A program made the position numbers and the translations under genes. A stretch of 64,000 nucleotides of DNA from Kribbella sp. NBC_00382 (GTDB lineage: Bacteria > Actinomycetota > Actinomycetes > Propionibacteriales > Kribbellaceae). This document shows positions 56,314-59,468 of the stretch, piece after piece; position 1 is the first letter of the stretch; every line of letters begins with the position of its first letter. The stretch covers positions 8,370,001-8,434,000 of the forward strand of contig NZ_CP107954.1 of assembly GCF_036067295.1 (NCBI RefSeq), read 5' to 3'. The notes under the pieces are model-generated. The model worked only from the letters and a program-made list of their open reading frames with translations. It made no database searches and was not told the DNA's origin.

Positions 56314-56347
56314 TAGACAAGCTGACTTGTTCAACTTGACTTGTCTA
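56314..56347. promoter_or_regulatory. Operator between cupin and MarR genes
   Basis: Inverted repeat TAGACAAG (56314-56321) and CTTGTCTA (56340-56347), with further ACTTG/CAACTTG copies between them, so overlapping half-sites are possible. It ends two bases before the MarR ATG and 19 bp from the cupin start, fitting autoregulation and cupin control. Confidence 0.65.
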
Positions 56348-56349
56348 TC

Positions 56350-56823
56350 ATGAGAGACATGGCGACAAATGACAAGCCCGATTTCGGCATCCTGCTGCTC
56401 CTCGCCGAACAGGAGTTCGTCCGCGAACTCCGCGCGGCCACCGCGGCGCAGGGCTTCGACGACCAGGGCCGCTCCGACGGCTTCGTCTTCCGCACCCTCG
56501 GCGCCGGGCCGGCAACCATCAGCACCCTGGCGACCCGGCTGGACATCACCAAACAGGGCGCGGCGCAGATTGTCGACGACATGGAGCGGCGAGGGTACGT
56601 GGAGCGGCACCCCGATCCGACGGACGGACGGGCGCGACTGATCCACCTGTCAGCGCGCGGCGAGGCTGCTTTGAAGGCGGCCCGGCGCTTCCACCAGGCG
56701 TACGAACGCAAGCTGCGCAAGACCTACGGCGACGAAGTGATCGACGCGGTCCGTGCTGTCTTCACCGCAATGGCAGGCGAAGACAGCACCACCGATCCGC
56801 ACTTCAGAGCACTGATGTTCTAG
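56350..56823 (+). CDS. MarR-family transcriptional regulator
   Basis: 157 residues from the ATG at 56350 (a second ATG at 56359 is also possible; neither has a good ribosome-binding site, and a leaderless start is conceivable). Winged helix-turn-helix: GPATISTLATRLDITKQGAA, VDDMERRGYVERHPDPTDGR. It is divergent from the cupin gene. Confidence 0.9.
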   Translation: MRDMATNDKPDFGILLLLAEQEFVRELRAATAAQGFDDQGRSDGFVFRTLGAGPATISTLATRLDITKQGAAQIVDDMERRGYVERHPDPTDGRARLIHLSARGEAALKAARRFHQAYERKLRKTYGDEVIDAVRAVFTAMAGEDSTTDPHFRALMF

Positions 56824-56903
56824 CGGGTTGAGTGGTTGCTGTTGGTGCTGTGGATTCGGGGCTGGTGCGGTACGGGACTCTGGATCGCGTCGCCGGGCTG
56901 CTT

Positions 56904-57011
56904 GAGTGTCCTAGTCGAGCCGGTGGGTATCAAGGGCGCTTCGCGTCCCTTCGGGATCGAACAAGTTCGACCCTTGACACCCACCACCACGACCAGGGAA
57001 AGACGCAGCTA
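56904..57011 (+). repeat. 108-bp structured repeat, copy A
   Basis: Begins GAGTGTCCTAGTCGAG and ends GACGCAGCTA. Its arms 56914-56936 and 56971-56993 pair into a long interrupted stem. The loop holds two small hairpins, TCCC-TTC-GGGA and TCGAA-CAAG-TTCGA, and a short CGC-TTC-GCG. About 88% identical (13 differences) to copy B, which is in inverted orientation. Confidence 0.88.
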
Positions 57012-57185
57012 TCCCGGAGCCGCTGACAAGACCGGCAACAATCGACAGTCCACCACCAACGCCCGGCCGACCCGTGTCGCGGCCCGCGACAAGCACAGCC
57101 GGCCCCGACGGGCAGGGCCACCACCGGGGTCGGCCACTAACGAGTTATTCGGCCCGAGACGGGTCCAGGGCACCGATTCGCCCGG

Positions 57186-57250
57186 CCACTGGCAGGTTTT
57201 CGTACCGGTGGCGTGAAGCATCACGCCGGTGGCACCAAAACCCGCCAGCG
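57186..57250 (-). repeat. 65-bp palindromic element, copy 2
   Basis: Reverse complement matches 37334-37398 over the full 65 bp with 8 differences. The outer arms and the GGCGTGA-TGCT-TCACGCC tip are conserved; a 3-bp inner segment is unpaired here. Lies between convergent genes, like copy 1. Confidence 0.85.
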
Positions 57251-57522
57251 AACACCATTTCTTCACCGACTGACACCCCTACAGGTCGCCAGCCGGTGAA
57301 CAACCCGCCCCCCAACCCCAGACCAGCCCGGATCAGGCCATCGCGCGCCGAGCCGTCGCCGCGCGACACCACCATCCCCACCAACACACCTGTCCCGCCG
57401 CGACCGAGAGCACCACCCGGACCGCCACCACACACCAACCCCGACACCCAGCCCTCGACACGCCGGGGTAATCGCTTGCTGACCGGGTTTGGTGTTCGCT
57501 GGCGGACCGGTCCGAGCGCCGG

Positions 57523-57612
57523 GCGACCGCCAGCCCATCAAACGCCCCGCAAACCACCCCGACACGCCGAGCCAGACGTTGCCCTCCGGGGCATTGATGG
57601 GCTGGCGGTCGC
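57523..57612. repeat. Long inverted repeat in the island
   Basis: GCGACCGCCAGCCCATCAA (57523-57541) is perfectly complementary to 57594-57612. The stem extends through GCCCCG/CGGGGC after a small mismatch. A loop of about 37 nt separates the arms. Confidence 0.8.
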
Positions 57613-57664
57613 ACGTTGCCCTCAGCAACCAATCTCAGCCACCCCGGCGACCGCGGCCCCGCCG

Positions 57665-57944
57665 CACAAGCCCCCTTGCCGCCGTCACCCCGCAACACGA
57701 CCCGCCTTGCCATCGGCACCCCGGAACAAGACCCGCCTTGCGATCGCCACCCCGCGACACGACCCACCTTGCCACCGTCACCCCGCAACACGACCCACCT
57801 TGCCACCGGCACCCCGCAACACGAGCCGCCTTGCCATCGGCACCCCCGGCACACGAGCCGCCTCGCGATTGGTGCTCCGGGACACGACCCGCCTTGCGAT
57901 CGGCGCCCCGGGACACGAGCCGCCTTGGCAAGGTGCCCCTCCGG
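57665..57944. repeat. Tandem array, nine units of 31 bp
   Basis: Unit starts at 57665, 57696, 57727, 57758, 57789, 57820, 57852, 57883 and 57914; all steps are 31 bp except one of 32. The core is CACGACCCGCCTTGCC then ATCGGCACCCCG. Because 31 is not a multiple of three, any open frame changes register in each unit, so it is not a protein repeat. Units are contiguous, without spacers. Confidence 0.88.
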
Positions 57945-57969
57945 CTCAGACCCCTCCGCGGGATCCGCG

Positions 57970-58077
57970 TAGCTGCGTCCTTCCCTGGTCGAGAGGGTGT
58001 GGGTCAAGAGTCGAACTTGTTCGATCCCGAAGGGACGCGAAGCGCTCTTGACGCACACCCTCTCGACTAGGACACTC
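57970..58077 (-). repeat. 108-bp structured repeat, copy B (inverted)
   Basis: Same length and ends as copy A, on the opposite strand. Its stem is almost perfect: GTCGAGAGGGTGTG and GTCAAGAG on one side pair with CTCTTGAC and CACACCCTCTCGAC on the other, leaving only a C-C mismatch. The loop with its small hairpins is identical to copy A. Confidence 0.88.
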
Positions 58078-58154
58078 CCGCGGCGGAGACCGCGCACCAC
58101 AGCACCCTTACCGCGGCACCCCGCCACCACACCCGGCCTTGCGAGGAGGCGGGT

Positions 58155-59417
58155 TCAGCTGGGGAAGTACTGCGGGAAGAGGTCGTTGGTAGGCCAGGTC
58201 TTCACGCCCTGGGCTGCGGTCCACATGGCTGCGTCGATGTCGCCGTATGACTTGCCGCTGGGGTCGTCGCGGCGGTTGAAGAGTGCGGCCCAGCTCATGC
58301 CGTTGTACGTGCGGACGAGCAGGGTGAAGGTTCCGGGGAGGCTGCCGGTGTGCCAGGTGTTGCGGCCGGTGCCGCCCTGGGTCGTCGGGCGGACCTGCCA
58401 GCCGAGGCCGTAGTACCAGCCGTCGGGCGATACGCCGGTCTCGGGCTTGGCCCAGACGCTGGCCAGCGAGGTGCTGTTCAGGACGGTGCCTGGCGCGTCG
58501 AACATCTTGGCCCAGCGGACCAGATCCGGGGCGCTCGCGATCCAGCCGCCGTTGGCGTCGTGGATGCGCATGCTGAAGGACCCGTACGGCGCTGCGACGA
58601 CCTTGCCCGTCATGTCCAGGACCGTCTTCGCCGTGTACTGCGAGTCGTACGGCACCTCGCCCGCGTGCTTGGCGATCGTGTAGCCCTGCGCCATCCGGGT
58701 GATCTTCAACGGGGTCAGCAACTTCTGCTGCACGTACGTCGCATAGGGCAGCCCGCTGACCTTCTCGATCACGCGGCCGGCGAGCAGGAAGCCGTAGTTG
58801 GAGTAGGCAACCTTCGTACCGGGTGCGTTGTCGAGCGGCCGCCCGGCCATGAACTTGATGACGTCGGCGTGCTGCAACTCCATCGGGACGCCGAGCGCCT
58901 TGGCGATGGTCGCGTCCATGCCGGTCGGGTCGCCGGACACGTCGCGGTCCCAGCCGCCGAGGTGCTGGAGGAGCCGCTTGATGGTGACCGTCTTCAGCCG
59001 CGGGTCGACCGTCTGCCCGGCCGGCGGGGTGAAGGTGAGGATCGACGTCACCGGCGTGGTCAGGCTGAGCTTGCCGTCCTGCACCAGCTTGAGGATCGCC
59101 GCCGACGTGAACGACTTCGTCAGCGAGGCGACCCGGAACAACGAGGTCGGCTGGACGGCCAGCGTGGACTCGGTGCTGTAGCCGCGGGCAAGTACCAGCC
59201 GGCCCTTGTACGTCACCGCCAACTGACCCGCCGTCACGCCGCGCGCCTGCATGAAGGTCTTCATCTGGTTGTCGAAACCAGCCAGCGCCGGCACTGCGGT
59301 CCCGGTCGCCTTCCACGTCGCGGCGGCGTCGGCGGACCTGATCACCGCCGTCCCGAGAGCCGCTGCTCCCCCGGTCGCGACGACGAGCTTGCCGAGATTA
59401 CGGCGTGACAGTTCCAC
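58155..59417 (-). CDS. Tat-exported beta-lactamase-family serine hydrolase
   Basis: 420 residues from the GTG at 59417, which has AAGGAG nine bases upstream; a longer frame from 59456 lacks this. A twin-arginine signal (LSRRNLGKLVVATGG) precedes a class C beta-lactamase-like domain with SLTK (98-101) as the nucleophile motif, YSNYG as the second, and HTGSLPG near the end as the KTG-like third. Probably a D-alanyl peptidase or esterase outside the membrane. It faces the repeat island. Confidence 0.9.
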   Translation of the reverse strand: MELSRRNLGKLVVATGGAAALGTAVIRSADAAATWKATGTAVPALAGFDNQMKTFMQARGVTAGQLAVTYKGRLVLARGYSTESTLAVQPTSLFRVASLTKSFTSAAILKLVQDGKLSLTTPVTSILTFTPPAGQTVDPRLKTVTIKRLLQHLGGWDRDVSGDPTGMDATIAKALGVPMELQHADVIKFMAGRPLDNAPGTKVAYSNYGFLLAGRVIEKVSGLPYATYVQQKLLTPLKITRMAQGYTIAKHAGEVPYDSQYTAKTVLDMTGKVVAAPYGSFSMRIHDANGGWIASAPDLVRWAKMFDAPGTVLNSTSLASVWAKPETGVSPDGWYYGLGWQVRPTTQGGTGRNTWHTGSLPGTFTLLVRTYNGMSWAALFNRRDDPSGKSYGDIDAAMWTAAQGVKTWPTNDLFPQYFPS

Positions 59418-59468
59418 TGACGTGAACTCCTTCAAACACAGGCGGTTGAACGTCAAAAACTACAAGCT

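Follow-up and report, generated by a model that had tools for sequence, protein, structure and literature searches.

The DNA analysed here, referred to as the window, is a stretch of 64,000 nucleotides from Kribbella sp. NBC_00382 (contig NZ_CP107954.1, positions 8,370,001 to 8,434,000). Between a MarR-family regulator gene and a beta-lactamase-family gene it carries an element bounded by two inverted hairpins (Table 1). The first-pass annotation had recognised two inverted copies of 108 bp at 56904-57011 (plus strand) and 57970-58077 (minus strand), and our comparison bore this out: 95 of 108 positions are identical (88%) and the copies are spaced 958 bp apart. The conserved unit exceeds 108 bp, the 108-bp copies being the cores of hairpins of about 130-150 nt. 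The flanks, inside as well as outside, distinguish an L-type end (at 56904) from an R-type end (at 57970); the hairpin and its base stem are common to both.

Table 1. Features of the element and its neighbours (window positions).
Feature	Position	Strand	Remarks
MarR-family regulator, left neighbour	56341..56823	+	3' end towards element
L-end hairpin as modelled, 127 nt	56892..57018	-	Outward is leftwards; contains 56904-57011; contig 8426892-8427018
Promoter-like core of L hairpin	56905..56933	-	TTGATA 56928-56933, 17-nt spacer, GACACT 56905-56910; putative function
Non-coding interior of element	57019..57962		Codon-position and Pfam evidence
Interior hairpin	57187..57248	-	Bottom strand folds better in 7/8 copies where located
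Second interior inverted repeat	57520..57615		22-nt arms, 95% complementary
Tandem repeats of ~31 bp inside R end	57647..57926		Similar units outside both ends
R-end hairpin as modelled, 127 nt	57963..58089	+	Outward is rightwards; contains 57970-58077; contig 8427963-8428089
Promoter-like core of R hairpin	58048..58076	+	TTGACG 58048-58053, 17-nt spacer, GACACT 58071-58076; putative function
Beta-lactamase-family gene (PF00144), right neighbour	58155..59456	-	3' end towards element

The description of the interior as gene-free was upheld. Comparison of paralogues A and B gave 53/38/55 substitutions over the three codon positions, 8 of 10 gaps were not multiples of three, and the two long interior open reading frames that were scanned had no Pfam match at E ≤ 0.01; a protein-coding interior is therefore unsupported. 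Read from L to R, the interior has a positive AT skew in 15/15 elements and a negative GC skew in 14/15. Element B gave no counterpart of the interior hairpin, and G007 provides the copy with the better top-strand fold. The ~31-bp repeats were considered as a separate repeat family and rejected as such, a query with the array having returned six element loci and one weak place of 39 bp. A conserved island at 57456-57499, with an imperfect palindrome around AAKCGCTTG, is also found in the other aligned elements and is possibly a protein-binding or recombination site.

In all, 43 hairpin copies were read, of which 42 entered a first alignment (one partial copy dropped) and 37 a second (five near-duplicates dropped). 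The fold consists of a base stem, an internal loop, a stem of 26 pairs and a tip of three mini-hairpins, and 95.9% of the pairing cells are paired across the 37 aligned copies. It had been proposed that compensatory change maintains this structure. Within the window, both of the changes named in support were found again (G56935-C56972 to A-T and G56926-C56981 to T-A in the second copy), and 56921-56986 is a third pair changed on both sides, for which the fold of the outward strand keeps pairing (copy A having T.G and copy B having G-C). Alignment columns 34/112 and 42/104 are also changed on both sides with one copy left unpaired, so that the differences between the two copies are only partly compensatory. 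The accompanying picture of an identical loop on a diverged stem needs amendment, as divergence extends beyond the stem and the loop differs in other copies. Covariation over the 37-42 aligned copies does support a maintained fold and exceeds the background of both shuffled and slid structures: both sides had changed in 14 pairs and 82 cells of the 37-copy alignment, compared to 7.0 and 19.8 in shuffles and to a maximum of 5 pairs and 15 cells when the structure was slid. The count of further pair types was not above shuffles (100/500).

Several features distinguish one strand from the other. On the outward strand, wobbles are of the G.T type in 93 cells and A.C in 3. With RNA parameters, the better fold is that of the outward strand in 35 of 38 distinct cores, and with DNA parameters in 42 of 43, although in only 28 of 38 when flanks are included. 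In the window, the L hairpin reaches -56.8 on the outward strand and -45.2 on the other, while the strand difference of the R hairpin is small (-61.6 vs -59.1). The secondary structure is thus strand-specific, as is that of an RNA-polymerase-dependent single-strand origin (sso). Two of the tip hairpins have GNA loops in 91/93 and 84/94 located cases, and the third has CTTG or CTCG in 49/84 and GNA in 35/84. GNA-type DNA mini-hairpins are very stable.

The outward strand also carries a promoter-like core. The pattern TTGA[C/T], a 17-nt spacer and NACNNT is present on this strand in 37/37 copies and on the other strand in 0/37. TTGA[C/T] resembles a -35 box; the NACNNT, which resembles a -10 box, sits in the internal loop, and in the aligned copies the positions corresponding to -11 A and -7 T are invariant and the 3' arm is without indel. 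Sigma factors read a -11 A and a -7 T flipped out from single-stranded DNA. In the pairs that involve TTGA, all six changes are on the opposite arm, as against most of the stem, where variation of the 3' arm is equal or greater. A looser core pattern with spacers of 15-19 nt was found in 25 of 27 forward matches of the first cross-genome set; matches of the covariance model are biased towards the core letters, because the model was built with those letters. A scan for consensus promoters found no match, and the hexamers, the -10-like box among them, are weak. The core motif is absent from matches L151, L152, L156, L158, L176 and L180 of Blastococcus, Geodermatophilus and Modestobacter, and these hairpins of the Geodermatophilus type perhaps represent a sub-family with another function. 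The same six hairpins keep the tip.

A search of the genome returned 11 copies in all, those of the window included, every one with E ≤ 1.4e-27. In this assembly (G000; 8,486,922 bases in one contig) they form four inverted pairs and three singles. Matches at the DNA level occur in 14 of 38 Kribbella genomes, its own included, and covariance-model matches (E ≤ 0.001) in 31 of 38. Defining a pair as an L/R doublet less than 1.3 kb apart, we found such doublets in five of the 38 genomes among the matches listed (four in G000, five in G028, seven in G015, one each in G007 and G005; one partner is partial), and 18/18 are inverted with their hairpins pointing outward; copies of one genome are related, and these counts are not of independent events. 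Wider same-strand doublets in G011 (1.9 kb) and G029 (2.5 kb) fall outside this definition, and the hairpin groups of loci L126 and L127 were not counted as pairs. The length from hairpin to hairpin ranged from 643 to 1202 bp in the 15 elements measured. Records labelled 'Streptomyces sp. SID13031' (contigs of G028; L153, L164, L170, L181, L184 and L185) group in Kribbella and are probably misnamed.

The element, which sits between convergent genes, is absent at orthologous sites in some relatives. At the MarR/beta-lactamase junction, G016, G015 and G032 have nearly no spacer, other sequence is present in G018 and G007, and G013 has a different stretch; this junction looks like an insertion hot spot. 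The site of a further element, C, is empty in G007 and G029, and in G028 it holds a shrunken copy whose hairpins are mostly deleted. Multiple copies together with empty orthologous sites agree with the suggestion of the first-pass annotation that the repeats are the ends of a non-autonomous, mobile-like unit. No target-site duplication was seen in the empty-site junctions read, where flanks are diverged and repeat-rich; no transposase was found between the ends of the pairs examined, and a search for a gene mobilising the element found none. Three sites are common to G000 and G028, namely the window site, L017 (where most of the L hairpin is lost) and C, and they could be old insertions that were homogenised later. 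Orthologous ends of G000 and G028 are only 82-84% identical, compared to a mean of about 98% between ends within G028 and 87-90% within G000. Because orthologous ends are less alike than ends of the same genome, either the copies evolve in concert within each genome or insertion occurs repeatedly at the same places. As to what replaces the element at the window junction (56824-58154), G018 has another palindrome, G007 other tandem repeats and G013 another stretch.

Outside these paired elements, the hairpin has relatives on actinomycete integrative elements (AICEs) and on plasmids. With the covariance model (E ≤ 0.001), matches were obtained in 73 of 394 sampled genomes of the class, belonging to 25 of 138 genera. 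At L134, on a Frankia-type AICE, the order is an FtsK-type gene, RepSA, a 99-aa open reading frame, the hairpin, an integrase and then a tRNA. RepSA lies on the strand of the hairpin in 9/9 AICE loci of another family (the integrase was checked in two of these, L134 and L154). In Kribbella, merging of neighbouring fragments left 32 RepSA loci; among the matches listed, 15 have a hairpin within about 16 kb, which in 15/15 cases shares the strand of RepSA and lies on its 5' side, and for the other 17 no hairpin is among those matches. Orientation with respect to the rolling-circle initiator is thus fixed in all 24 loci compared; the G011 region has one weak match (20.6 bits) on the opposite strand. 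Such constancy of strand is a requirement for an sso. L220, an AICE of Kribbella, has the hairpin first, followed by regulators, an FtsK-type gene, RepSA and the integrase. AICEs have the hairpin and not the inverted pair, and the Kribbella pairs may derive from hairpins of the AICE type. The AICE and its hairpin are found some 30 kb into the contig in two single-contig genomes (G137:C1:30088 and G169:C1:30196). The RepSA proteins of L219 and L220 have weak, sub-threshold matches to Helitron_like_N (PF14214).

At L127, three minus-strand hairpins precede plus-strand genes by 71, 79 and 426 nt, the first two of these genes having a ParB and an ArdC domain, respectively. This placement is as expected for ssDNA promoters. 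The core motif is missing in 2 of the 4 L127 hairpins, including the one before ArdC. The L127 hairpins were not found in six plasmid stretches homologous to this region (L187-L192), and the leading-region argument comes from L127 alone; L192 has one full-length match after a recombinase gene, and L188 has weaker matches. The window hairpin was not found by blastn in plasmids, nor the Frankia-type hairpin in phages, and two core patterns gave 0 matches each in a viral collection.

In a probable Streptomyces (G180, for which 8 of 11 plasmid matches are Streptomyces), 4/4 pairs are inverted and outward-facing around cargo genes with GntR-UTRA, NUDIX and HAD domains and one with only a sub-threshold TPR match. 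The ends of one of these units are inverted repeats of about 400 bp (88%), and G442 lacks the whole of this unit (2.3 kb), GntR gene included. The inverted repeats of the unit at L140 (3823-4139 and 6705-7022; 95% over 319 bp) reach outward past the hairpins and end only shortly before the neighbouring gene, as though one arm had received a copy of the DNA flanking the other. A GntR-UTRA regulator occurs both as the cargo of a paired unit (L125:6983-7741) and as a gene of a Kribbella AICE (L220:6546-7784).

We propose, with confidence evenly balanced against doubt, that the window copies terminate, in inverted orientation, a non-autonomous mobile element devoid of genes, with a single-strand origin or ssDNA promoter at either end. 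Once single-stranded, the outward strand would fold into the long stem with its multi-hairpin tip. In this fold the -35-like box would be double-stranded, as part of the stem, and the -10-like box, at a distance of 17 nt, would lie already melted in the internal loop. Starting there, host RNA polymerase would transcribe the 5' arm and the 5' flank, yielding a primer or an mRNA. On AICEs, the hairpin would act as the sso by which the displaced strand is turned into duplex. Since the two hairpins of the window element are on opposite strands (L on minus, R on plus), both strands would have a start close to the 3' end, and exposure of either one would allow the entire element to become duplex again. 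As a whole, the interpretation that the first-pass annotation gave to these hairpins is partly supported.

The hairpins may work like two known systems, a likeness of working rather than of class. According to PMC4595007, the sso adopts its fold in single-stranded DNA, where host RNA polymerase treats it as a promoter and makes a primer; according to PMC11541004, Frpo primes likewise on conjugative plasmids. To the sso described there, such as ICEBs1 sso1 and those of Gram-positive rolling-circle plasmids (PMC4595007), the likeness would be an orientation-specific ssDNA fold on a rolling-circle element; here, however, the fold is another (with a cruciform-like tip), the host range differs, the window copies are chromosomal inverted pairs and the activity is predicted. 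Frpo/ssi (PMC11541004) would resemble our hairpins in having the -35 and -10 boxes inside the stem, and a further likeness is that three L127 hairpins stand, on the would-be template strand, ahead of genes that are ParB-like, ArdC and others; here the fold is GC-rich and actinobacterial, and two of the four L127 hairpins are without the motif. In the open-access literature searched, we found no description of the paired hairpin architecture, no description of single-strand origins of this type on AICEs and no paper combining Kribbella, inverted repeat and hairpin; in the accessible part of an AICE survey (PMC3218068), the terms 'hairpin', 'secondary structure' and 'single strand' are absent.

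One competing explanation is a structured RNA encoded by each end, about 130 nt long, with transcription running outward out of the interior and covariation protecting the RNA fold. The strong covariation, the G.U-type wobbles and the RNA energies, which favour the outward strand, all speak for it, but the tip loops are mainly GNA triloops, a -35/-10-like pair lies within the supposed RNA, the RepSA strand rule has no ready explanation, and neither L134, L125 and L127 nor the window search yielded an Rfam match at gathering score to such an RNA (a tRNA being the only gathering match at the three loci, and window 56700-58300 giving only sub-threshold miRNA matches in an E-value search). We consider this RNA unlikely. 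The annotation had left the choice between folded RNA and folded DNA; the GNA type of the loops, the constant spacing of the -35/-10-like pair and the fixed strand relative to RepSA suit folded ssDNA better than RNA, so that the former is favoured and the latter less so. A terminator or insulator working in both directions between convergent genes would account for the position of the element between gene 3' ends in the window and, by a rough codon-usage caller that misses genes and also served for some related loci, at 4 of 7 own-genome loci. Read-through RNA of the neighbours would, however, correspond to the weaker-folding strand (clearly so for L, the gap being small for R), no terminator-like site was found, and relatives retain the same convergent genes without the element, which makes this explanation very improbable.

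Alternatively, the hairpins might serve only as terminal recognition structures of an ordinary non-autonomous transposon or palindrome element, bound by a transposase (HUH or other) encoded elsewhere, with the motif incidental. Insertion with empty sites, L and R ends, a fast-changing interior and the exchange of cargo in Streptomyces-type units are all compatible with this; on AICEs, however, a single copy stands beside RepSA, on one strand in 24 loci, where no transposition end is needed, and motif and spacing are conserved. We regard this possibility, too, as doubtful. Since the hairpin directly precedes the integrase gene on Frankia-type AICEs, it could be a folded recombination site for a tyrosine integrase, following an attC-like logic. 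The order of 99-aa open reading frame, hairpin and integrase in L134 and L154 would fit; in L220, by contrast, about 9 kb separate hairpin and integrase and the hairpin is on the far side of RepSA, and the tRNA beside the L134 integrase suggests that the integration junctions of AICEs are outside the hairpin. We attach only the slightest likelihood to such a site.

The proposed element, with its ends as single-strand origins, can also be set beside other inverted and repeated DNA. MITEs and REP/BIME-type repeats are short, multi-copy, intergenic, palindromic and non-coding. The window element is likewise short, multi-copy, intergenic, palindromic and without coding capacity, but it has long structured L and R ends with AICE relatives, and the classical combination of terminal repeat and target duplication was not seen. 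Parvovirus inverted terminal repeats and the telomere palindromes of Streptomyces have inverted ends with multi-hairpin tips. Inverted multi-hairpin ends and, in our model, a start at each 3' end would be shared with these, whereas the window element is embedded in a chromosome and its proposed primer is an RNA made by polymerase, not a folded 3' end.

More tentatively, such elements might form a class of mobile DNA in actinobacteria whose movement passes through single strands and which has a self-folding promoter near each 3' end, from which host RNA polymerase would restore the duplex, combining the logic of terminal repeats with RNA primers. This class would be gene-free in Kribbella, carry interchangeable cargo in the probable Streptomyces and share its end structure with AICEs. 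If the proposal for the window element is true, the covariance model offers a way to locate candidate single-strand origins on AICEs and on plasmids of actinobacteria and to recognise the exposed strand, and the analysis would reveal a mobile element whose ends are single-strand origins.
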